IMG/VR virus record: IMGVR_UViG_3300027834_000020
Span: 1 to 35,385 of that record
Length of the DNA stretch: 35,385 nt
Direction: 5' to 3' (one strand)
DNA from: a virus
Part shown: positions 10,461-27,168 of the stretch, piece by piece
Layout of the letters: each line of letters begins with the position of its first letter
Position numbering within the stretch: the stretch's first letter is position 1
Position numbers and translations under genes: made by a program
Notes under the pieces: model-generated
Told to the model about the DNA's origin: nothing
Databases searched by the model: none
Seen by the model: only the letters and a program-made list of their open reading frames with translations

Positions 10461-10485
10461 TTGTCCTAACCGGCTGGCACAACGC
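10461..10485 (+). promoter_or_regulatory. Ogr-type activator site of the V operon (late promoter PV)
   Basis: TTGTC-N12-GCACAACGC in the 78-bp gap between S and V. Downstream bases 10489-10512 (CCGCTACCCTC, one base, CGCGCGTAAGCC) also match the copy before FI almost exactly. A transcription start about 45-55 bases past the dyad would fall close to the V start codon, so the leader would be very short. Confidence 0.78.
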
Positions 10486-10528
10486 TAGCCGCTACCCTCT
10501 CGCGCGTAAGCCGCGCAGCATTGGCGGC

Positions 10529-11095
10529 ATGAATAACGCCGCCGAAATACTCCGTCTGATTCAAAACTTGGTTCGCATCGGCACGATTGCCGAGGTCGAC
10601 CACGAAGCCGCCCGCGTGCGCGTTAAGTCCGGCGAACTGCTAACCGCCTGGGTGCCGTGGCTAACCGCCCGCGCCGGTACCACGCGCGATTGGAACCCGC
10701 CCACCGTAGGCGAGCAAGCCGTCGTCTTTTCGCCCGGCGGCGATACCGCTAACGCCGTGGCCATGCCGGGGCTCTACCAAAACGCCCACCCGGCACCCTC
10801 CAGCGATCCGGCATTAATCGGGCGGTGGTACCCAGACGGCACGCGCGTTGAATACGACCACGAAAACCATCGGCTGCTAATTCACTGCGTGGGCGACATC
10901 CATCTCGAAGTGAAAGGCAGCTTAACGGCAAATGTCGGTGGGGATATGAAAGCGACCGTTAAAGGGGTAGCCACCGTCGACGCCAAAAGCATTCATCACA
11001 ACGGTGGTAGCTCGGTGGTGACCACTGCCCACATTTGCCACTTCACCGGCAACCCTCACGGCGATGGCAGCTCAACAGTAACGGCAGGCAAATAG
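10529..11095 (+). CDS. V: Baseplate spike/membrane-piercing protein (P2 gpV family)
   Basis: A 188-residue central spike (P2 gpV is 211). The N-terminal OB-like part contains RIGTIAEVDHEAARVRV and WVPWLTARAGTTRDWNPPTVGEQ split across the domain. Residues from about 125 are a short beta-helix with repeating polar/hydrophobic strands (LEVKGSLTANVGGDMKATVK). The tip has histidine-rich HICHFTGNPHGDG, suggesting the metal-binding apex known in P2. First gene of the second late operon; the ribosome site is weak. Confidence 0.93.
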   Translation: MNNAAEILRLIQNLVRIGTIAEVDHEAARVRVKSGELLTAWVPWLTARAGTTRDWNPPTVGEQAVVFSPGGDTANAVAMPGLYQNAHPAPSSDPALIGRWYPDGTRVEYDHENHRLLIHCVGDIHLEVKGSLTANVGGDMKATVKGVATVDAKSIHHNGGSSVVTTAHICHFTGNPHGDGSSTVTAGK

Positions 11096-11633: not shown

Positions 11634-12535
11634 GCACGCCCATCGATCTATCCAAGCTGCCCGCCCCGACGATCATTGACCCGCTCGACTTTGAGCAGCT
11701 GTTTGAAGAGCGTAAGGCGCGGCTAATCGAGCTAACGCCCGAAGCCGAGCGCGAAGAGCTGGTCGAAACCCTGCAGCTAGAAAGCGAGCCCCTGGTCAAA
11801 TTCCTGCAAGAGTCCGCCTATCGTGAGCTGATTTTAAGGCAGCGCCACAATGAGCGCGCCCGCGCGCTAATGCTCGCCTACGCCGAAGGCCCTGAGCTGG
11901 ATCACATCGGCGTCACCTACTATATGACCGAGCGCCTCACCTTGCAGGCTGCCGACCCCGACGCTACGCCGCCAGTAGACGCGGTCATGGAAAGCGACCC
12001 CGACTACCTGCGCCGCATCCTGCTAGCCCATGACGCATTCAGCACCGCCGGTGGCCGCAATGCCTACCGCTACTACGCGCTGGGCGCTGATCCGCAAGTT
12101 AAAGACGCTGACGCCATCCGCCCGCTAGCGGGCATGGTGCAGGTGTATGTTCTCTCGCGGGAAGACGATGGCGAAGCATCACTTGCGCTGATCGCAGCGG
12201 TTGAAGCCGCTTTGAATGCAGACGACGTGCGCCCACTGAGCGACACCGTCCGCGTCACCAGTGCCAGCGTACTCAGTTTTGCAGTCAGCGCCGCCCTTGA
12301 GCTGCGCAATGGACCCGATGCCGACGTGGTGCGTGACGAAGCCATCGCCGCCGCGCGTGATTACGTCAACCAGCGGCACGCCCTCGGCGAAGTGATTGTC
12401 GCGGGCGCCCTGGAGTCCCGACTCTACGTGCCCGGCGTCGAGCGCGTCACCATGGCATCACCCCTGCAAGACATTGGCGGCGATGCCAGCGAGGCGCCGT
12501 ATTGCACCGCTATCGAGGTGACCGTCAGTGGCTAG
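11630..12535 (+). CDS. J: Baseplate assembly protein (P2 gpJ family)
   Basis: A 301-residue wedge protein (P2 gpJ is 302). Family features include the early LPAPTIIDPLDFEQLFEERK, the central AEGPELDHIGVTYYMTERL and the YLRRILLAHDAFSTAGGRNA block. It should sit at the outer edge of the baseplate, linking W to I and the fibres. It overlaps the next start by 8 bp. Confidence 0.95.
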   Translation: MSTPIDLSKLPAPTIIDPLDFEQLFEERKARLIELTPEAEREELVETLQLESEPLVKFLQESAYRELILRQRHNERARALMLAYAEGPELDHIGVTYYMTERLTLQAADPDATPPVDAVMESDPDYLRRILLAHDAFSTAGGRNAYRYYALGADPQVKDADAIRPLAGMVQVYVLSREDDGEASLALIAAVEAALNADDVRPLSDTVRVTSASVLSFAVSAALELRNGPDADVVRDEAIAAARDYVNQRHALGEVIVAGALESRLYVPGVERVTMASPLQDIGGDASEAPYCTAIEVTVSG

Positions 12536-13616
12536 CCTGCTTCCGCCCAACACCACGCCCCTGGAGCGCCGCGTTGAACAAAGCGACGCCCTAATCGAAC
12601 GCGCGGACGCCCCGCTAGACACCGTCTGGAATGCACAGACCCAGCCCGCCCACATGCTGCCCTGGCTCGCCTGGGCGGTCGGGGTCGATGATTGGGATAG
12701 TCAGTGGGAAGAACAGCAAAAGCGCGACGCTATCGACGAAGCCATACCCATTCGCCGCAAGCGCGGCACCGTGTGGGCGGTCAAGCGCGCATTGGAAGTG
12801 CTGGGCTATAGCGATGTCGAATTGCTTGAGCACACGGCGCAGCGCGAAAAGTGGATCGCCGCCGGTGGCCTGCTGCTAGACGGAAGCTGGATGTTGGATA
12901 GCCGGTCCATGCTGGTCGAAAACGCCCCGCGTGTAGTGACGACGCATTGGGCGCAATACGCCCTAGCGTTCAATATCAACGACGCCCCCTTTACAGCCCG
13001 CAGCCAGCGACGTCTCCGCCGCCGAGTCGAAGCGGCCGCCCCGGTGCGCTCCGAATTAATCGCCCTCATCTACCGCTACGCCGCCGAGTTTGACGCCCGA
13101 ATCTGGTTATCCGCTCCGCAAAACCGCATTAGCCAGCGCTATGCCGGTTGCCGTGGCGAGCAAGTCCACCGCGCACGACTGCTTAGCGGTTGCTGGTCGC
13201 TTAGTGGCGGTTACGTGCCGCGCCTCCTGAACGAAGCCAAGCGCCTTGATGGTAGCTGGCGGATTACCGGCCAAGCACCGACCGGCGAGCCGCTAAATCA
13301 CGGCTGGGGAACGGTGGCCACGCGCGTCAAACAGCGAACCGCCATGGCCCTGCAGTCGCAAAGCCGCAACCACTGGACGCTCAACGAAGTAGAAATCGAC
13401 CGCCTCGACGGCACCTGGAAGTTAAACGAAGTGGTCGACGGCCACCGAAAGCTAGACGGCAGTTGGCCGCTTTCCGTTGGCCGCCTCACTCAGCACCGCC
13501 GCCCCAAGCTCAATGGCGCCCGCACCCTGGGCGGTACGCAAACCCTTAACAGCATCGGCACCACTGCCCGCGCGGTAATGCGTGACCGCCGCATCAAAAC
13601 GGAGATCCGCCTGTGA
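12528..13616 (+). CDS. I: Tail protein I with a C-terminal LDGSW-repeat extension
   Basis: The first about 185 residues are a P2 gpI-type baseplate protein (P2 gpI is 176 in total), with MLPWLAWAVGVDDWD and RRKRGTVWAVKRALEVLGY. It continues to 362 residues. The added half carries irregular repeats of a short motif: LLSGCWSLSG, RLDGSWRITG, WTLNEVEIDRLDGTWKLNE, KLDGSWPLSV and KLNGARTLGG, spaced roughly 15-40 residues apart. Another copy, LDGSWMLDS, lies inside the first half. Such repeats suggest a small beta-solenoid or a fibre-docking extension. GTG start, overlapping J. Confidence 0.9.
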   Translation: MASLLPPNTTPLERRVEQSDALIERADAPLDTVWNAQTQPAHMLPWLAWAVGVDDWDSQWEEQQKRDAIDEAIPIRRKRGTVWAVKRALEVLGYSDVELLEHTAQREKWIAAGGLLLDGSWMLDSRSMLVENAPRVVTTHWAQYALAFNINDAPFTARSQRRLRRRVEAAAPVRSELIALIYRYAAEFDARIWLSAPQNRISQRYAGCRGEQVHRARLLSGCWSLSGGYVPRLLNEAKRLDGSWRITGQAPTGEPLNHGWGTVATRVKQRTAMALQSQSRNHWTLNEVEIDRLDGTWKLNEVVDGHRKLDGSWPLSVGRLTQHRRPKLNGARTLGGTQTLNSIGTTARAVMRDRRIKTEIRL

Positions 13617-13972
13617 GTGACGTTATACCCGCCAATAAACAGTTCCGCGCCAAAGTCGCCGCCGCCGTGGCAGCGGGTACCGCCCCGCCCAGCATTACCC
13701 ATGCCGCCTGGGGCACCAACGGCGACCCGGCAAGTGACGACGATCAAGCACTCGGCAGCGAAGTGCACCGCCAGCCGGTGGATAGCGCGACCGCGCAAGA
13801 CACGCTGCTAACCGTGCTCGCCACGCTGCAGGGTGCCGACGTGGAAGGCTACGCCGTGCGCGAGATCGCCATTATCGACAGCGACGGCGACCTCGCAGGA
13901 CGCCGCGCGTTCCGCCCGCTTGAGCTAGAACCGGGCACCGAAATTGAAACCACACTAACCCTGCAGTTTTAA
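13613..13972 (+). CDS. Fibre-base protein (gpH N-terminal-like), stand-alone
   Basis: A 119-residue protein resembling the N-terminal attachment domain of P2-type tail fibres (gpH): ITHAAWGTNGDPASDDDQ, then EVHRQPVDSA and a C-terminal YAVREIAIIDSDGDLAGR. In P2 this domain is fused to a long fibre; here it ends at a TAA and the variable fibre gene starts 10 bp later with its own AAGGAGG. It probably joins the fibre to gpI/gpJ. GTG start overlapping the stop of I. Confidence 0.78.
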   Translation: MSDVIPANKQFRAKVAAAVAAGTAPPSITHAAWGTNGDPASDDDQALGSEVHRQPVDSATAQDTLLTVLATLQGADVEGYAVREIAIIDSDGDLAGRRAFRPLELEPGTEIETTLTLQF

Positions 13973-13981
13973 GGAGGCATC

Positions 13982-16012
13982 ATGGCCGACTATCTAACCG
14001 TAAGCAGCGAGCCCAGCTTTAGCGAAGTGCTGGGCGCGGTCACTGAAAACGATCCCGCCCACCCTGACACCTGGAACCCGCAGTATCACGCGCTCTTGGA
14101 AAACGACCACTGGCTCCGCGCCGCCATCCTGGCCACCCAAGGCCAAGTGGAAGACATTCTCGGCAGCGACCCGATCAACCTATCGGATCGCCTCGACGCC
14201 CTGGTCGAATACGGCGCCCAGCGCGTGTTTGTTGAGCGCCGCGAGCAAGTGCCCGAGCTAACGGTGGTAAGCGCCGTGGGCGGTGATGATTCCATCGACC
14301 TGGAAACCAGCGAGGGCATCGAAGTCGGCCAGCACTACTTTATTAACGATGCCGGTAACGTGCAGATTGTCCGCGTCGCCGAGATCCTTTCAGGCCAGCG
14401 CATCACCCTAACCACCACGCTCACCAGCACCGTCGCCAGCGGTTCCAAGCTAAGTCGGTTAGCACCCGAGGACTACCTCTCCCCCGAGCTGGAGGACATG
14501 GAGCGCGGCGCCTATCTGCACGCCCAAGGCGAAGGGCTAAGTGCTCGCTACTGGACAGGCAGTGCATGGCAAAACCTGACCCAGCGCGCTGACGGCAGTT
14601 GGGATATTCCCAGCAACATCACCCGCGTTCGTGTCACGGGCACCGTTAGTCGCGTGGCCATCATTACCGCACTACCCATCGGTGTAACGCGCCGCCCTGA
14701 AAACATCACGCCCGCCGAAGGTGCGACCGGCGTCACCGCAACGCCCACGCTAACCGGCGGTGCTTACTATCCGCTCTACGGTGTGCCGCAAGAGATGCGC
14801 CGCTTTTGGGTATTTGAAGCTGGTGGCGACGCGCCCATCTATGAAGCCGACGAAGCGCCGGTGGGCGATACGCCTATCGTTGCCCACACCGTCGACACAC
14901 CTATCGACATCGGCGCCGAACACGAATGGCAGTATCAAGATCGCAACGTCGAAGGCGAATGGGGCCAGCGCTCCCCACGCACGCGATTCAGTACCGCTAA
15001 CACCTACGTGGAAGCGCCCAGCGTCACTAGCCCGCTAGCCGGTGCAACCGACGTGCCCGAACAGCCCATCATTGAGCTGAGCGCGTTTAGTGTCGTCAAT
15101 GGCACCGATACCCACGTCGCCACGTCATTGCGCATCAAAGACGACAGCGGCGCTGTCGTGTGGCTGCTGGATCGCTCCACGCAGCTGGATAACATCGACG
15201 TGCCAGAAGGTATCCTGCAGCCGGGCGAACGCAACTACACCATCGAGCCCCGCCATCACGGCCAAACCTTTGGTGACTCCGCTTGGGGCAGTGCCATCAC
15301 CATCACGACGGCCGCCAGTTTCACGCCGGATTTTGAAGCCGAAGTGGGCGCGCCGTTCGGCGGCGGCTATGTCGCGGGCAAGATCGTGTCTGATTACGAC
15401 AGCCAAACCTACGGCCTGATCGTCTCCGACGGCGGCGGTGATAGTGCCCAGCAGGGCGACGGCACCATGAACTGGCGCACCTCCCGCACCTCGGTGTCAG
15501 TCACAGAAGGCGTGCCGCCGATGACGCTGGCCGATGGCCGCGCAAACCAAAACGCCATCCTCGCGCTAAACAGTCTCACCAGCTTCCCGGCGTTCAAGTG
15601 GATCGAAGACAACTGCAACGCAGGCGCGGGGCTTAACGGCCATAACGATTGGTACCTACCCAGCCGCGATGAGCTGGAATTGATTTACCGCAATTTCAAG
15701 CCGACCACGCAAGACAACAGCACAAGCACGCGCACCACATCGGGTTTTGGTGGTGATGGTGCGGTGTTTGGTACCAACGCTAGCTCAGTGCCCGCCGGTG
15801 CCGGTTACACCTTGTCGGCACCGTCACAAACCGCCCAGGCCAGCTTTCAGGAAAGCGGTGCAGACGCCGTCACGACCAGTTCCAACTACTGGACGAGCAC
15901 GGAGCGCGACGCCAGCACCGCCTGGTACCAGAGCTTCTACAATGGCAGCCAGTACAACATCACCAAGGACAATAGCTACCACGTCCGCGCCGTACGGAGA
16001 ATTGCCCTTTAA
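13982..16012 (+). CDS. DGR-variable tail-fibre/receptor-binding protein
   Basis: A 676-residue protein. The N-terminal quarter is fibre-like and helical (YHALLENDHWLRAAILATQG); the middle has two Ig/FN3-like units opening with ITPAEGATGVTATPTL and SPLAGATDVPEQPII. From about residue 455 comes a DUF1566/C-type-lectin-fold domain with NDWYLPSRDELELIYRNF, NYWTSTE and a final HVRAVRRI. Residues 634, 646, 649, 651, 653, 656, 658, 660 and 661 differ from the template at adenine-encoded positions. It should be the receptor-binding tip that the DGR diversifies. AAGGAGG precedes the ATG. Confidence 0.93.
   Translation: MADYLTVSSEPSFSEVLGAVTENDPAHPDTWNPQYHALLENDHWLRAAILATQGQVEDILGSDPINLSDRLDALVEYGAQRVFVERREQVPELTVVSAVGGDDSIDLETSEGIEVGQHYFINDAGNVQIVRVAEILSGQRITLTTTLTSTVASGSKLSRLAPEDYLSPELEDMERGAYLHAQGEGLSARYWTGSAWQNLTQRADGSWDIPSNITRVRVTGTVSRVAIITALPIGVTRRPENITPAEGATGVTATPTLTGGAYYPLYGVPQEMRRFWVFEAGGDAPIYEADEAPVGDTPIVAHTVDTPIDIGAEHEWQYQDRNVEGEWGQRSPRTRFSTANTYVEAPSVTSPLAGATDVPEQPIIELSAFSVVNGTDTHVATSLRIKDDSGAVVWLLDRSTQLDNIDVPEGILQPGERNYTIEPRHHGQTFGDSAWGSAITITTAASFTPDFEAEVGAPFGGGYVAGKIVSDYDSQTYGLIVSDGGGDSAQQGDGTMNWRTSRTSVSVTEGVPPMTLADGRANQNAILALNSLTSFPAFKWIEDNCNAGAGLNGHNDWYLPSRDELELIYRNFKPTTQDNSTSTRTTSGFGGDGAVFGTNASSVPAGAGYTLSAPSQTAQASFQESGADAVTTSSNYWTSTERDASTAWYQSFYNGSQYNITKDNSYHVRAVRRIAL
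15870..16000 (+). repeat. VR: DGR variable region (VR)
   Basis: Aligns without gaps to TR at an offset of 755 bp. Nine mismatches occur within 131 bp (at 15881, 15918, 15926, 15933, 15938, 15948, 15953, 15960 and 15963), and each one faces an adenine in TR. The last 37 bp (15964-16000) are identical and end with a GC-rich block (CCGCGCCGTACGG) that would serve as the initiation-of-mutagenic-homing region. All nine changes alter the amino acid. Confidence 0.95.
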
Positions 16013-16034
16013 CACTTCACCCTTTAACCCTTTA

Positions 16035-16054
16035 GGGCGGTGGTAACGCCGCCC
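16035..16054 (+). repeat. Hairpin downstream of VR
   Basis: GGGCGG (16035-16040) pairs with CCGCCC (16049-16054) across an 8-nt loop, 35 bp after the end of the VR match. TR has no such element after it. In the Bordetella phage DGR a GC-rich hairpin/cruciform just past VR stimulates retrohoming, so this is the likely counterpart. There is no T run, so it is not a classical terminator. Confidence 0.6.
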
Positions 16055-16077
16055 AACACGATCAAGGCACGGACGCA

Positions 16078-16467
16078 ATGAAGGCCAAAGAGACACCGAT
16101 ATACGCCACCACCTACCAGCTTGCAGAAATGCTGCTAAGGGTCACGCGCAATTTCCCGCGCGACCTAAAGCCAACGCTAGGGCAACGAATCATGGACACC
16201 AGCATGAACATGATTTTGACCATCTACCGAGCCAACGCAGCCAAGGAAGGCCGCGCGGTGCTGGTCGAAAAAGTCTTGGAAGATCTGCAGGTAATAGAAA
16301 TGGCGATACGGCTATCGAGCGACCAGCGCTTAATCAGCCGCAAGCAGCACGGCCAACTGATCGAGCTAACCGACTCCATCGGGCGCCAAGGCTTCCGGTG
16401 GAAGCAGGACGCCCAGCGGCGACAGCCGCAAATGCACCCCGGCAAAAGGCATGGCCAGAATGTGTAA
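16078..16467 (+). CDS. avd: DGR accessory variability determinant (Avd), four-helix bundle
   Basis: A 129-residue basic, all-helical protein matching the Avd/four-helix-bundle family: TPIYATTYQLAEMLLRVTRN, then FPRDLKPTLGQRIMDTSM and ISRKQHGQLIELTDSIGRQ. In known DGRs Avd forms a basic pentamer that binds the RT and the template RNA and is needed for cDNA synthesis. It lies between VR and TR as in Bordetella phage BPP-1. The C-terminal tail (QRRQPQMHPGKRHGQNV) is very basic and fits RNA binding. No clear ribosome site is visible (GGCACGGACGCA precedes). Confidence 0.93.
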   Translation: MKAKETPIYATTYQLAEMLLRVTRNFPRDLKPTLGQRIMDTSMNMILTIYRANAAKEGRAVLVEKVLEDLQVIEMAIRLSSDQRLISRKQHGQLIELTDSIGRQGFRWKQDAQRRQPQMHPGKRHGQNV

Positions 16468-16624
16468 AGCCAAGGCTATACGCAGCGAGCCAATAATCTC
16501 GGACTGCTCCCGCAGGGTATTGCAGTCGCAAGACGCGCCCCGCGAAAAGGTAATCACCAGTTCGGCCACGGCTCCCAGTGTTCCGTGGTCTGACGTGTCA
16601 GTGAGCAGCTTAACGAAGACGCCT

Positions 16625-16755
16625 TCACGACCAGTACCAACTACTGGACGAGCACGGAGCGCGACGCCAGCAACGCCTGGAACCAGAACTTCAACAATGG
16701 CAACCAGAACAACAACAACAAGGACAATAGCTACCACGTCCGCGCCGTACGGAGA
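16625..16755 (+). repeat. TR: DGR template repeat (TR)
   Basis: This is the template copy of VR, carrying ten AAC codons when read in the VR frame, eight of which are changed in VR together with one ACC. Homology reaches back to about 16618 but has one non-adenine mismatch (T16624 versus G15869), so I set the boundary just inside it. TR is transcribed to RNA and copied by the RT with misincorporation at A. It lies inside the open frame of the RT gene, in a different reading frame from VR. Confidence 0.95.
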
Positions 16756-17866
16756 TCATGACGCCTTTACCGCCGGGGAAGTATTCAAGGCCTACTTTGA
16801 CTGCCGTAAAAACAAAAGAAACACGGCTTCACAACTACTGTTTGAATCGAAATTAGAGCGCAATTTAATGCGGCTCACGCGCGAGCTAAACGACGGCAGC
16901 TACCGGATCAGCAAGTCGGTAGCGTTCGTCGTCAGCTATCCAAAATGGAGGGAAGTCTGGGCCGCCCAGTTCCGCGACCGCGTCGTGCATCACGTTATGT
17001 ACAACCGGATAGCCGAACGCTTTTATAAAGGCTTCATCCACGACAGCTACGCCTGCATACCGGGGCGCGGCTCACTCATGGGCGCGGATCGCGTTCACGC
17101 CTTCATGCGTCAAGCCACGCAGAACTGGCAGCAGCCCGCGCACTTTCTGCAGGCCGATCTATCCAACTTCTTTGTCAGTATCAATAAGGAGGTACTGTTC
17201 GAGCGCCTGTGCGCGCGGGTACCTGAATCAGTCACGCGCCGCCTAATCGCACAAATCCTGTTTCACGACCCCACGCAAGGGCCGATCATCAACAGCCCCG
17301 CCTGGAAGTTTCGCCATGTGCCGCGTCACAAAAGCCTGTTCAACAGCGGCGGCAAAGGGCTGCCCATCGGCAACCTTAGTAGCCAGTTTTTTGCCAACGT
17401 CCACCTGGATGCGCTCGACCAGTTCGTCAAAAGAGAGCTAGGCATAAAGCGCTACGGCCGCTATGTCGATGACGTCGTGATGGTCGATCCCGATCCGCAA
17501 AAACTCAACGACGCATTCAAGGCAATGCAGCACTACGCCACACACACGCTGGATCTCGCCTTCCACCCCAATAAAACCCAGCGCAATAGCGTTTATCGTG
17601 GCATCAACTTTTGTGGCTACATCATGAAGCCCTACCGCCGCTACGTGCGTCGGCGCTCCACCAACGCCATGAAAGAAGTGGCGCACAGCGCCGAGCGATA
17701 CACCGACCCCGAAGCCTGGGGCGCCCGAATGAACAGCTACCTAGGCATTTGTCAGCACGCCAATACCTACCGCTTGAGAAAGCAGCTAGCCATCGACACC
17801 GGTGCCACGTTCGGCGTTGGCCTGGATAAAGTCATCACCCGTAAAGCCAAGAGGAACGCCCCATGA
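16697..17866 (+). CDS. DGR reverse transcriptase
   Basis: A group II-intron-related RT of the DGR type. The polymerase core begins at HDAFTAGEVFKAYFDCRKNK. Motifs include FRDRVVHHVMY, DLSNFFVSI (catalytic aspartate), GKGLPIGNLSSQFFANV and RYVDDVVMVD (YVDD, residues 256-259 from this start). DGR RTs carry (I/L/V)GxxxSQ in place of QGxxxSP, and IGNLSSQ fits exactly. The start is unresolved. The frame is open from 16451; the only ATG close to the core is at 16697 inside TR, giving 389 residues with a Thr-rich 20-residue leader encoded by TR. Stop overlaps the next ATG. Confidence 0.93.
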   Translation: MATRTTTTRTIATTSAPYGDHDAFTAGEVFKAYFDCRKNKRNTASQLLFESKLERNLMRLTRELNDGSYRISKSVAFVVSYPKWREVWAAQFRDRVVHHVMYNRIAERFYKGFIHDSYACIPGRGSLMGADRVHAFMRQATQNWQQPAHFLQADLSNFFVSINKEVLFERLCARVPESVTRRLIAQILFHDPTQGPIINSPAWKFRHVPRHKSLFNSGGKGLPIGNLSSQFFANVHLDALDQFVKRELGIKRYGRYVDDVVMVDPDPQKLNDAFKAMQHYATHTLDLAFHPNKTQRNSVYRGINFCGYIMKPYRRYVRRRSTNAMKEVAHSAERYTDPEAWGARMNSYLGICQHANTYRLRKQLAIDTGATFGVGLDKVITRKAKRNAP

Positions 17867-18384
17867 GCATCAAGCACGTAACCGCCTACTACGTAGACGC
17901 CAAAGACGGCCGCCCAGCCAGCGAAGCCCCGTTACGACACGGCCCCATGCTGCCCAGTGTGAACCTAATCGTTAACGCCGTGGATCGCCGGGAATCGCCG
18001 CCGCTGATTATCGGCACGCTACCCGCCAGTGAGCCGTTATCACCCGGTATGCAGCTAATTGAAGAGTCAGAGCACGTAACCCGCGTTAACGACATCGAGC
18101 ACTGGCGTGAAAGCAACAGCCAGCGGGAGCTAGCCAAAAAGCGCGAAAGCATGGTGGTAAGTGCGTTCCAGGCCTTCGCCTCCCTCGCCGCCGCCGGGTA
18201 CCTCGATCAAATCGAAACCATGATGGCCGACCCAGAGACGCCGCGCATTCACCGCCTTGCGTTTGAAAAGGCTCAAGAGTTCCGCCGCCTAAGCCCTACC
18301 GTCGATCACTGGAAAGAGCGCCTAGAGCTAACCGAAGCCCAGTGCGACGAACTGTTTGAGAGCGCGGCTACCATCGAAGCCTAA
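17863..18384 (+). CDS. Putative tail-fibre assembly/chaperone protein
   Basis: A 173-residue protein of uncertain function, coupled to the RT by ATGA. The C-terminal part (LDQIETMMADPETPRIHRL, then FRRLSPTVDHWKERL and LTEAQCDELFESA) resembles the C-termini of phage tail assembly chaperones of the gpG/APC type. It sits where P2 has gene G, the fibre chaperone, directly after the fibre locus. The N-terminal half is unfamiliar. A chaperone for the variable fibre is the best guess, by position and weak similarity; a DGR-specific role cannot be excluded. Confidence 0.75.
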   Translation: MSIKHVTAYYVDAKDGRPASEAPLRHGPMLPSVNLIVNAVDRRESPPLIIGTLPASEPLSPGMQLIEESEHVTRVNDIEHWRESNSQRELAKKRESMVVSAFQAFASLAAAGYLDQIETMMADPETPRIHRLAFEKAQEFRRLSPTVDHWKERLELTEAQCDELFESAATIEA

Positions 18385-18401: not shown

Positions 18402-18426
18402 AAGCCCGCCACCCGGCGGGCTTTTT
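18402..18426 (+). terminator. Terminator ending the V-fibre-DGR operon
   Basis: A 9-bp stem (18402-18410 AAGCCCGCC with 18415-18423 GGCGGGCTT), loop ACCC, then a T run to 18426. It separates the fibre/DGR operon from the sheath operon, which has its own Ogr-type site 10 bp further on. Confidence 0.9.
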
Positions 18427-18435
18427 GCTTGCATC

Positions 18436-18460
18436 TTGTCCAGCCTCCACGGCACAACGC
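18436..18460 (+). promoter_or_regulatory. Ogr-type activator site of the F operon (late promoter PF)
   Basis: Third copy of TTGTC-N12-GCACAACGC. The next 27 bases, CCACCGCTACCCTC followed by CCGCGCGTAAGCC, match the V promoter with only a few differences, so the polymerase-contact region is conserved as well. It lies 98 bp upstream of the sheath start codon. Confidence 0.8.
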
Positions 18461-18558
18461 CCACCGCTACCCTCCCGCGCGTAAGCCCCACACCATGGCA
18501 GCACTAACACCGCCAACCGAACCTAGCCCGCTTGAGCCTGCGCAGGAGACAAGCACTC

Positions 18559-20067
18559 ATGATCGAATACCACCACGGCGCCCGTGTCACCGAGATCAAC
18601 GAAGGCACGCGCCCCATCCGCATCATTAACACCGCCGTCGTCGGCCTCATCGGCACTGCCCCCAATGCAAGCCCCGGCGTAAAAGCCACGGCCACCATTA
18701 ACGGTATCGAACCCGATTCCGGCCTGGTCATAACCGCCAAAAACGCGGGCATTTCCGGCAACAATATCCGCATTACCCTGGCAGACCCCGGCGAAATGTC
18801 CGCCGCCATCTTGGTCACGGTCGACGAAAAGCGCATTACCGTCTCACTCGCCACCGACGCCGAAGGCGAGATCCTCAGCACCGCCGCCGAAGTCGCCAGT
18901 GCCATCAACGCCGAAGCCAACGCCACCGCCCTGGTCACCGCCGCCGCAGTCGCCACCGGGCAAGACGTCGTCACCACCGCCGAAAACGTCCGCCTCACTG
19001 GGGGCATCGATGAACCCTTCCCGCTCAACGAGCCGGTATTGATCACCAATATCTACACCGCCATCGGCCAAGCCGGGGCCGGAGGCACCCTCCGCCGCTC
19101 GCTGCAAGCCATCGTCGATGAAGGAAAAACCGTCGTCGTCATGGTCCGCGTGGAAGAAGGCGAAGACGAAGCCGCCGCCACCGCCAACGTCATCGGCAGC
19201 GTCGACCAGCTCACCGGCAAGAAAACCGGCATCCAGGCATTTACCGCGGCAGAAACCAAGTTCGGCGTAAAGCCGCGCATCTTCGGCGCCCCGGATCTCG
19301 ACACCCAAGCCGTCACCGCCGCCATGGTCGCCATCGCCCAGCAACTGCGCGGCTTCGTCTACGCATCCGCCCACGGCTGCGCAACCAAAGAAGAAGCCCG
19401 CATGTACCGCGAAAACTTCGGTGCCCGCGAGCTAATGATCATCTGGCCAAGCTTCCAAGCGTTCGATGTCGACGCCGAAGAAACCCTGCCGCTCCCCGCC
19501 GTCGCCAAAGCAATGGGCCACCGCGCCCGACTCGATCAAGAAATCGGCTGGCATAAAACCCTATCTAACATGCCGGTAAACGGCGTGACCGGCATCACCC
19601 AGGATCTCTCCTGGGATCTGCAAGATCCGAATACCGACGCGGGCTACCTCAACGAAGCCGATGTAACGACGTTGATCAGAAAAGAAGGCTTCCGCTTCTG
19701 GGGCTCCCGCACATGCAGCGCCGAACCGCTCTTCGCGTTCGAGTCATACACCCGAACCGCCCAAGTGCTCGCTGACACTATCGCCGAAGCCCACTTTTGG
19801 GCAGTCGATAAGCCGATGCACCCCAGCTTGGTGCGCGACATCATCGAAGGCGTCAATGCCAAGTTCCGCGAGCTAAAGCGTAAGGGCTACATCCTCGGCG
19901 GATCCGCGTGGTTCGACGCAGAGATCAACACGCCCGAAGTATTGAAGGCTGGGCGGTTGTACATCGACTACGACTACACCCCGGTACCGCCGCTAGAAAA
20001 CCTCATGTTCCAGCAGCGCATCACCGACCGTTACCTCGCCGAATTCGCCGAAAGCGTCGCCGCCTAA
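18559..20067 (+). CDS. FI: Contractile tail sheath protein (P2 gpFI family) with insertion
   Basis: A 502-residue sheath protein; P2 FI is 396. The P2-like start [17 protein letters not shown] and the whole region from [12 protein letters not shown] (about residue 144) onward follow P2 FI, including [16 protein letters not shown] and [15 protein letters not shown]. Between about residues 40 and 142 lies an extra domain absent from P2 (starts [13 protein letters not shown], contains [14 protein letters not shown]), probably a beta-rich domain on the outer surface. AGGAG ends 10 bases before the ATG at 18559. Confidence 0.95.
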
Positions 20068-25496: not shown

Positions 25497-25622
25497 TCAG
25501 GTTATCGCCCAAATGATCAAGCGCAGCAGTGCAGCTAGCAGAACCGCTGCCATCAGACCCGAGATAAAATTACCCAGCCATGGGCGCCGCTCCACCCAGC
25601 GAATCAAGCGAACGTGAATCAT
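25497..25622 (-). CDS. 41-residue single-pass membrane protein
   Basis: A small ORF: a basic amphipathic N-terminus (MIHVRLIRWVERRPWLGNF) then one long hydrophobic helix (GLMAAVLLAALLRLIIWAI) ending in T and a stop. Its ATG overlaps the stop of the upstream gene (ATGA), which is the main argument that it is real. Function unknown; position in the lysogenically expressed operon and topology suggest a membrane effector such as a superinfection-exclusion peptide or a toxin-like peptide, but this is inference. Confidence 0.55.
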   Translation of the reverse strand: MIHVRLIRWVERRPWLGNFISGLMAAVLLAALLRLIIWAIT

Positions 25623-25978
25623 AGGGCATCATCCAACTGGCACCGCACTTGATGCACCACCACGCCACGCACCATCCGCGCAGTGGCCATAACGCCGGTA
25701 CCGCCATTGGGCGGCAGCAGGCGAAAACGCGGGCCAATCCGAAACGTTTTATACAGATGCAACGCATCATCCATTTCCACCACCACTAGATCGTCATGCC
25801 CCAGGCTGCGGGATTCATCCACCAACAGCACATCGCCCTCGATCACGGCCCCATGTATGCCCGCTTCGGTAGTCACTTCCACAGCAAAGCAGCTCGGCGA
25901 ATAACCCGCGCTATCAACACCGTCTAGCGCGGGGTGCTCAATGCCCATCGCCATTGGGCCAAGATATGTTAAGCGCAT
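25619..25978 (-). CDS. S24/UmuD-like domain protein lacking the catalytic serine
   Basis: A 119-residue protein resembling only the C-terminal half of LexA/CI repressors. FAVEVTTEAGIHGAVIEGD lines up with the repressor's VRVRGDSMAGTLDDGD, and LLVDES with VFVDLS. The catalytic Ser of GDSM is replaced (alanine or glycine at about residue 39-40), while the general-base lysine seems kept (HLYKTFR, K77). No DNA-binding domain. It could act by pairing with CI or host LexA/UmuD-type proteins. Start at 25978 chosen because the longer TTG frame overlaps the lipoprotein gene; no good ribosome site. Confidence 0.75.
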   Translation of the reverse strand: MRLTYLGPMAMGIEHPALDGVDSAGYSPSCFAVEVTTEAGIHGAVIEGDVLLVDESRSLGHDDLVVVEMDDALHLYKTFRIGPRFRLLPPNGGTGVMATARMVRGVVVHQVRCQLDDAL

Positions 25979-25989
25979 AGTAGATATAC

Positions 25990-26415
25990 TCAGCGTAGTG
26001 CGGGAATTAGCCAATAATCGTCGGCGTAGCTGGGGATCTCATCTACCATCATATTCAGCCAATCACCGTTAACTGCTTTGGCTCTGCTGAAATTTAGTTT
26101 CATGTAAAACTGCGCTGGGTTGTCTTCGTGTTTCCAGCCAAAGAAAAAGCTGTCTATGTTGGGGTACTCATCAAGTAAAACTCTCATGGCCCGCTTCACA
26201 TCAAGTAAATGGCCTCTTGTGCTCATGCTGTTTGTCTGGAAAACCACCGACATATAGGCCGTCGAGTCGACGATTCGCGCTTCGGTGGGTAATTTACCAG
26301 TTGCTGATTCAACAACTTCTACGGGCGTTCCTTCTTCCGCTGTAATCTGTTTTTCCGCTTCGACACCACAAGCTGACAAAAGAACTGTAATTAATAAAGT
26401 GCTTAGTAAACGCAT
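25990..26415 (-). CDS. Putative lipoprotein of unknown function (moron candidate)
   Basis: A 141-residue protein with a signal peptide and lipobox (LLSAC, Cys16), acidic just after the cysteine (GVEAEKQITAEEG), then a compact domain with VDSTAYMSVVFQTNSM, LLDEYPNIDSFFFGWKHED and PAQFYMKLNFSRAKA. It lies 30 bp downstream of the repressor in the same direction, so it is probably made in the lysogen. Its base composition looks lower in GC than the tail genes. A surface role in lysogenic conversion or superinfection exclusion is plausible. No family recognised. Confidence 0.8.
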   Translation of the reverse strand: MRLLSTLLITVLLSACGVEAEKQITAEEGTPVEVVESATGKLPTEARIVDSTAYMSVVFQTNSMSTRGHLLDVKRAMRVLLDEYPNIDSFFFGWKHEDNPAQFYMKLNFSRAKAVNGDWLNMMVDEIPSYADDYWLIPALR

Positions 26416-26445: not shown

Positions 26446-27168
26446 TTAAAGTACCTGTCCCAAATTAACTAAACACCGCCCTAACACTTCTACAAACTGT
26501 TTCTTGTCTGGTGCGATTAGCTCTTTGTCATAACGGGGATTATCGCTTATCAACAGCCAGCCACCGCCCGCCACGCGCTGCATGCGCTTAATGCGTCGCT
26601 CGCCGTCCATTAATAAAAGGTAAACGCCCTCACGGCTGGGGTCGCGTTGGCTTAAGTCAACAAAAACCCAATCACCATCATCCAGCGTTCCAGCCATGCT
26701 GTCACCGCGAACACGAACGCCAACCGTGTGCTCCGGTGATGACTTATTTATTTGTTCAAAAGTGCTTCGATCCATATTGAAGTGAGCAATTATTGGCTCG
26801 CCTTCAAAGCTGCGACCTGAGCCAGCGGCACAGTCAACGTCATACATTGGAATAGTGACGAGGTTAGGGTCTTCATCCCTTTGCTGCTGATAAGTCGCTC
26901 GCTGTTCAGCTGTGCTCAGATCGTTATAAAGACCAGATTCCGGCGTTATTGGGCCTGGGCCATCACCAAGTAATAGCCAATCTAATGAAACGCCCGTTGA
27001 TAAAGCCGCATCAATACATACAGAAGTTGGGATATTTCCATTTTTCGACCAGTTATGGATTGTCGAGGCGGCTCTTCCAATAGCTTTTGATAGCTGCTGA
27101 TCATTCTTAACGCCGTAGGCAATTCTAAGCCTTTCAAGTACTTGTGCGCCTAGATGATCTGTTTGCAT
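26446..27168 (-). CDS. cI: CI-type repressor (HTH plus S24 self-cleaving domain)
   Basis: A 240-residue lysogeny repressor. The N-terminal HTH (residues about 7-65) has LERLRIAYGVKNDQQLSKAI and GRAASTIHNWSKNGNIP, like phage CI repressors. The C-terminal S24 domain has Ser157 (RVRGDSM) and Lys194 (RRIKRMQ) as catalytic pair and a likely Ala115-Gly116 cleavage site (VDCAAGSG). It should therefore be inactivated by RecA during SOS, as in phage 186-type or lambdoid repressors and unlike P2 C. It diverges from the early operon, with an inverted-repeat operator between them. Confidence 0.93.
   Translation of the reverse strand: MQTDHLGAQVLERLRIAYGVKNDQQLSKAIGRAASTIHNWSKNGNIPTSVCIDAALSTGVSLDWLLLGDGPGPITPESGLYNDLSTAEQRATYQQQRDEDPNLVTIPMYDVDCAAGSGRSFEGEPIIAHFNMDRSTFEQINKSSPEHTVGVRVRGDSMAGTLDDGDWVFVDLSQRDPSREGVYLLLMDGERRIKRMQRVAGGGWLLISDNPRYDKELIAPDKKQFVEVLGRCLVNLGQVL

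Follow-up and report, generated by a model that had tools for sequence, protein, structure and literature searches.

How could a phage with a P2-type tail vary the tip of its tail fiber while the rest of the particle stays fixed? This question is raised by the tail-fiber locus of IMG/VR virus record IMGVR_UViG_3300027834_000020, which we analyzed over its whole length (35,385 bases; here called the window) and in which a first-pass annotation had placed a diversity-generating retroelement (DGR) in the H-G region of a P2-type tail module. The parts it named, a variable repeat (VR) at the 3' end of the fiber gene, avd, a template repeat (TR), and a reverse transcriptase (RT), are all present at or very near where they had been put, between gpI and the sheath gene. 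The claim that all parts stand in order held for these, but it had overlooked a separate gene for the fiber N terminus (13613-13972), a structured RNA in the avd-TR interval, and a third cassette gene after RT, orf173 (17863-18384). We conclude that this is very probably a working DGR in the tail operon of a P2-like prophage, with a guide RNA permuted relative to that of phage BPP-1. The cassette, the adenine bias of its repeats, the natural VR diversity of close relatives, and the covariation of the RNA, all read from sequence, carry this conclusion. The core of the cassette is as follows.

13982..16012, plus strand: tail fiber/receptor-binding protein, 676 amino acids (aa), the DGR target (PF07603 Lcl_C, 6.7e-11 at aa 543-672)
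15862..16000, plus strand: VR, in the last codons of the fiber gene, paired with TR
16035..16054, plus strand: 8-bp GC-rich hairpin with a GUAA loop, 34 nt after VR
16078..16467, plus strand: avd, 129 aa (PF22296 bAvd, 1.5e-12; PHROG Avd, 2.5e-25; NF033474, 3e-12)
16617..16755, plus strand: TR, paired with VR
16772..17866, plus strand: DGR reverse transcriptase core (PHROG reverse transcriptase, 4e-100; frame open from 16370)

VR and TR are 139 nt each and 93% identical (self-BLAST E 5e-47). Nine of their 10 mismatches fall at TR adenines (hypergeometric p=3e-4), and the sole exception lies near the 5' edge of the repeat. Read in the VR frame, TR contains 12 AAY codons, 8 of which are altered in VR, and no stop is reachable from AAC by changing its adenines. 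No third TR-like copy besides VR was found in the 35-kb record. The Lcl_C match, above the Pfam cut-off in the window, recurs at an E value of 0.01 or better in 10 of 11 members of the fiber family, and it is this match that points to a C-lectin nature for the tip; the lectin-type tip proposed earlier thus stands at the level of the domain match, while the fold model of the tip is of low confidence. The hairpin reported after VR is also present. Its loop, GUAA, departs from the published BPP-1-type pattern (GC-rich, 7 to 10 bp, GRNA loop, 4 to 34 bp after VR), and among the 11 loci examined it occurs only in the window and L106, with no hairpin of this kind seen in the naturally varying relatives described below; we therefore rejected it as a conserved part. 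The Avd assignment comes from Pfam and PHROG, and the NCBIfam match (NF033474) reaches 46.8 bits, below its cut-off of 80. In three other loci (L050:11960-12096, L054:10442-10578, and L077:11159-11261), VR lies on the opposite strand, 1 to 10 kb away, downstream of TR.

The RT carries the motifs IGNLSSQ and YVDD that had been noted at first pass, the former fitting the (I/V)GxxxSQ pattern of DGR RTs, and its best solved-structure match is 8ub7 (2.6e-40). Group II, defense-associated (DRT), and retron identities were considered and rejected, the NCBIfam matches being far below curated cut-offs and the others generic RT matches. In a tree that included BPP-1 and ACA1, with group II and RT-Cas1 sequences as outgroups, the window RT grouped with RTs of TR-bearing DGRs, apart from the outgroups. 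The P2-type cassettes form one RT clade (support 100/99). It is nested in a branch that holds DGRs of temperate phages and of bacteria and is well removed from ACA1/VP58.5 and from BPP-1. On a Pseudanabaena plasmid (L126:898-3516), a gene for a four-helix-bundle protein stands directly 5' of an RT-Cas1 gene, an arrangement like that of avd and RT.

The stretch between avd and TR is 149 nt long in the window, the gap from TR to the RT core being 16 nt. The elements predicted there and at the far edge of TR are listed here.

16453..16612, plus strand: structured RNA 5' of TR, compact and RT-15-like, 39 pairs in 6 helices (covariation; matches of model R1)
16496..16500, plus strand: linker AUCUC, proposed partner of the TR 3' edge
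16752..16756, plus strand: GAGAU at the TR 3' edge, proposed partner of the linker

The RNA begins in the last codons of avd; helices 1 and 2 form a 5' hairpin, and helix 3 closes a multibranch that holds three hairpins. Across 8 P2-type sequences, 98% of cells pair and two-sided changes occur at 15 of the 39 pairs (0 of 500 shuffles), a signal that is destroyed when the partners are slid. Over 26 loci, 35 of 39 pairs covary, in an alignment that was fitted to the structure model. Model R1, built from the 8 P2-type sequences, places the RNA immediately 5' of TR in some 25 further loci, the held-out P2-type loci L134 and L136 among them, and in the DGRs of sister phages its matches coincide with the coordinates of the Rfam family RT-15 (RF03018). 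An Rfam scan of the window did not detect RT-15 even at E 5, the RF03018 gathering threshold not being reached. Folding of the window RNA as a single sequence is not significant (z -1.33), so the case for the RNA rests on comparison. By position, architecture, and these cross-matches, we regard the window RNA as a compact relative of RT-15: both lie 5' of TR with the same helix order and an AAUCU linker, while the window RNA has compact internal hairpins and AUCUC/GAGAU in place of the AUCUG/CAGAU of RT-15. The RT frame is open across the avd-TR gap, but the idea that this gap is coding was rejected, since comparison with L043 and L106 gave no codon periodicity or synonymous bias there, unlike in the RT itself.

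Two main layouts can be told apart among DGR loci. In layout A, found in BPP-1, VP58.5, ACA1, BalMu-1, YPCBV-1, crAss LMMB, and a Halomonas plasmid, 72 to 223 nt separate TR from the RT core and there is little between avd and TR where this is measurable. In layout B, that of the window's branch, the TR-RT gap is mostly 7 to 50 nt and the avd-TR gap about 120 to 200 nt. In BPP-1, the spacer 3' of TR binds RT-Avd, and an adenine within the spacer primes cDNA (PMC12875486). The alternative that survives best, though we think it unlikely, is that the window holds an ordinary element of the BPP-1 type, whose 5' RNA would only stop reverse transcription or regulate translation of avd or RT and whose scaffold would be inside the RT coding region. 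A motif at the 3' end of avd does end reverse transcription in BPP-1, where the scaffold is the 3' spacer (PMC12875486), and the window's RNA does start in the last avd codons. However, TR and the RT core are 16 nt apart against 90 nt in BPP-1 by the same measure, and the structured RNA is on the 5' side of TR. Synonymous sites at the start of the RT gene are also under no extra constraint, and so give no sign of a 3' spacer hidden within that gene, a candidate that we rejected on this ground. The 5' RNA, for its part, has 39 conserved pairs together with complementarity to the TR 3' edge, the expected start of the cDNA. As the window lacks a 3' spacer and the RT start lacks RNA-like constraint, the most economical reading makes the 5' RNA the probable scaffold, which the clamp described next would bring to the TR 3' end.

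The complementarity to the TR edge involves the unpaired linker before helix 3. In the window and most P2-type loci, AUCUC in the linker faces GAGAU at the 3' edge of TR; in RT-15 loci, AUCUG faces CAGAU. Linkers pair better with the TR edge of their own locus than with shuffled partners (0 of 5000), and the signal is gone after a slide of 22 to 66 nt. The pairing reaches past the core and past TR, with compensating changes, in 39 RT-15-type loci (0 of 5000), for example, UUGAUCUG/CAGAUCAA in L049 and L088, UUUCAAUCUG/CAGAUUGGAA in L074, and UUGAAUCUG/CAGAUUCAA in L016. In L114 and L136, the register of this clamp seems to be shifted.

These features suggest a permuted version of the DGR cycle. 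Avd and RT would copy the TR RNA into cDNA with adenines misread, and the cDNA would replace VR at the 3' end of the fiber gene, randomizing about a dozen residues of the C-lectin-like tip and leaving the remainder of the phage unchanged. The guide RNA would differ from that of BPP-1 in having its conserved multibranch scaffold 5' of TR, starting from the last avd codons; this RNA would bind RT-Avd and set priming, with AUCUC pairing to GAGAU so that the site where cDNA starts is held on the scaffold. Altered receptor binding would be the likely benefit, and hence possibly a change of receptor range or tropism. On balance, we favor extending the permuted guide RNA to a large DGR branch, comprising the P2-type fiber lineage as well as temperate phages with RT-15 RNAs, in which a 5' RT-Avd scaffold would use a short long-range helix to clamp the 3' edge of TR and cDNA would be started by fold-back from the 5' side, unlike in BPP-1.

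Evidence on whether such an element is active came from fiber relatives in IMG/VR, in which the same cassette is kept. Ten relatives with both repeats have 9 to 17 TR/VR differences each, essentially all at adenines (13/13, 15/15, 11/11, 13/13, 15/15, 13/14, 17/17, 16/16, 14/14, and 9/9). Four environmental contigs (L108, L109, L111, and L113) differ by 0.02 to 0.23% outside VR, being 99.8 to 99.98% identical there, and at 15 to 19 of 135 positions (11 to 14%) inside it. TR is identical in L108, L111, and L113, the three that include it; 56 of 57 VR changes from TR fall at adenines (p=6e-27), as do 24 of 25 polymorphic VR columns. These patterns indicate that a DGR in a close relative of the window phage has acted recently in nature. 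Absence of adenine-specific VR variation from related genomes, or an RT outside the DGR clade, had been named in advance as findings that would count against a DGR; both were looked for, and the variation exists between near-identical related phages while the RT falls, as described above, among those of TR-bearing DGRs.

A decaying remnant, with VR frozen and RT untranslated for want of an in-frame start after TR, is in our judgment quite improbable. The RT open reading frame (471 aa) begins inside avd and runs open through TR (16451-16772 in the window), and the ATG after TR is out of the RT frame in the window, L043, and L106. An in-frame ATG at 16697, inside TR, is present in the window and L106 and not in L043, whereas in L107, L108, L110, L114, and L045 RT starts right after TR in another frame. 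The fiber of L137 persists on a contig from which avd, TR, and RT are absent, and 1 of the 10 TR/VR differences in the window is not at an adenine. Against decay, the RT is intact and shows a strong third-position excess of changes (codon positions 16/9/65 among 90 differences from L043 and 33/23/125 among 181 from L106), its frame is open through TR in sister phages too, and the one non-adenine change lies close to the repeat's 5' end. ACA1 has also been described with TR translated as an extension of RT (PMC10612066). That the VR diversity among related contigs came from phage recombination or mixed-population assembly is scarcely credible, for although fiber C termini do recombine (82% identity between the window and L106 in the N-terminal part, 39% in the C-terminal part), the fibers of the four contigs are otherwise almost unchanged, 56 of 57 of their VR changes are at TR adenines, and neither recombination nor ordinary mutation would choose adenines.

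Several points count against a working DGR with a permuted guide RNA, the account that we prefer. The out-of-frame ATG just described is one; the natural variation is that of relatives about 69% identical to the window phage in the fiber; Avd has no solved-structure match by sequence; and the model of the fiber tip (pLDDT, a per-residue confidence measure, about 30 to 50) is too poor for a fold search. For the clamp, the helix is only 5 bp within the window's own clade, where covariation is weaker, most of the support coming from sister RT-15-type elements. We hold the clamp to be likely and go no further because relatedness inflates the partner-shuffling tests and because GAGA at the TR edge is also fixed by the protein code of VR (RR codons of the fiber).

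Comparison with known systems places the cassette. Like the BPP-1 cassette (mtd/avd/TR/brt), it has a phage tail target with a 3' VR, a hairpin after VR, Avd, an adenine-specific TR, and an RT, and these parts follow in the same order on a single strand. It differs in phage group, in its RT (about 31% identical), in its Lcl_C-type tip in place of the Mtd tip, and in its layout, BPP-1 having its scaffold on the 3' side of TR and hardly any gap between avd and TR. A DGR in P2-like phages was already reported in 2023, for Pseudoalteromonas ACA1 and ACA2 (PMC10612066). These Peduoviridae and VHML/VP58.5 share with the window a P2-like tail with a split fiber N terminus and the order antireceptor-avd-TR-RT followed by a third gene, with natural VR differences (PMC10612066). 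In contrast, their RT is 32% identical to that of the window and on another branch of the tree, and their fiber, avd, and third gene are not detectably related to the window's. The avd-TR gap is 8 nt and the TR-RT gap 72 nt in ACA1, and the spacer of VHML is 3' of TR, the reverse of the window. With an RT outside the ACA1/VP58.5 clade and no homologous antireceptor, the window falls outside that lineage.

The closest isolate RTs (43 to 48%) are those of the temperate phages Cruim01, LPPA56, QDWS, Magia, and Haboob, whose DGRs typically have two VRs. The RT-15 RNA lies between avd and TR in the first four, and Cruim01 and LPPA56 have a lectin tip related to that of the window's fiber. Their targets, however, are small proteins encoded away from the tail genes, in the early/integrase-side region, not tail fibers. 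Since the nearest isolates target small proteins and two of them have related tips, a DGR with its lectin domain has probably moved onto a P2-type fiber. ACA1 and ACA2 did likewise independently with a VHML-type DGR, and the window represents a second, separate lineage. P2-type tails, the best-studied contractile phage tails, thus took up hypermutation at least twice independently, and its activity in them has been recent in nature. A P2-like phage with a DGR is as such not new; what is new is the RNA layout, 5' of TR and the reverse of that in BPP-1, VHML, and ACA1. It gives the Rfam family RT-15 a likely role as a DGR guide RNA, predicts a second way of building such an RNA, and makes the start of DGR cDNA synthesis testable beyond BPP-1. 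No paper naming RT-15 was found in the limited literature searched, and the novelty of its link to DGRs is not certain.

The cassette lies in a P2-like (Peduoviridae-type) prophage, its genes matching in the order Q, P, O, N, M, L ... V, W, J, I, FI, FII ... T, U, D, A, int. By PHROGs and Pfam, the record runs from portal, terminase, scaffold, capsid, small terminase, completion, lysis, and tail completion through V, W, J, I, the fiber module, sheath FI, tube FII, and tape measure to U, D, repressor, replication A, and integrase. An att-like direct repeat (115-195/35229-35309) overlaps a tRNA-Thr gene, so the prophage looks complete, and Halomonas sp. PA16-9 is 96% identical to the right flank, which points to a Halomonas-like, salt-loving host. 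The features around the DGR core are as follows.

10476..10540, plus strand: repeat upstream of gene V, late-promoter candidate
12528-13616: gpI (Tail_P2_I)
13613..13972, plus strand: separate fiber N-terminal (baseplate-attachment) protein, 119 aa (PF12571 Phage_tail_fib, 6.2e-6)
17863..18384, plus strand: orf173, conserved third gene of the tail cassette, in the gpG position
18402..18423, plus strand: terminator-like stem-loop closing the operon; such sites are not commoner than chance in this region
18451..18514, plus strand: second copy of the repeat, upstream of the sheath gene, late-promoter candidate
18532-20067: sheath

Within contig reach, the P2-type relatives share the order V-W-J-I-fibN-fiber-avd-RNA-TR-RT-orf173-sheath, with the N-terminal gene always immediately 5' of the fiber. 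orf173 adjoins RT wherever the contig of a P2-type relative is long enough and is absent from other RT relatives. The window protein has no Pfam match; it gave a confident structure model with weak fold matches to phage proteins, including a tail-fiber-assembly-like protein. Its N-terminal half is kept across relatives, and the C-terminal domain is different in L114 and L137, probably also in L136. In L137 (2423-5100), a P2-type fiber with a VR-like end runs straight into orf173 on a 5.2-kb contig, which suggests that the DGR core is a separable module; this may be a DGR-minus allele or one served in trans.

The repeats upstream of V and of the sheath gene are about 65 to 82 bp long and about 80% identical, with a core, GCTACCCTCNCGCGCGTAAG, found only twice. 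They lie at the places of the late promoters in P2 and are likely to be such promoters; the V transcript would then include the DGR, which would be expressed late in the lytic cycle.

The locus is also mosaic relative to L106, the sheath being only 39% identical while J, I, avd, and RT are 89 to 94% identical. Farther along, a UmuD-like gene (25619-26014, minus strand) lies near an S24-type CI repressor gene (26446-27168).

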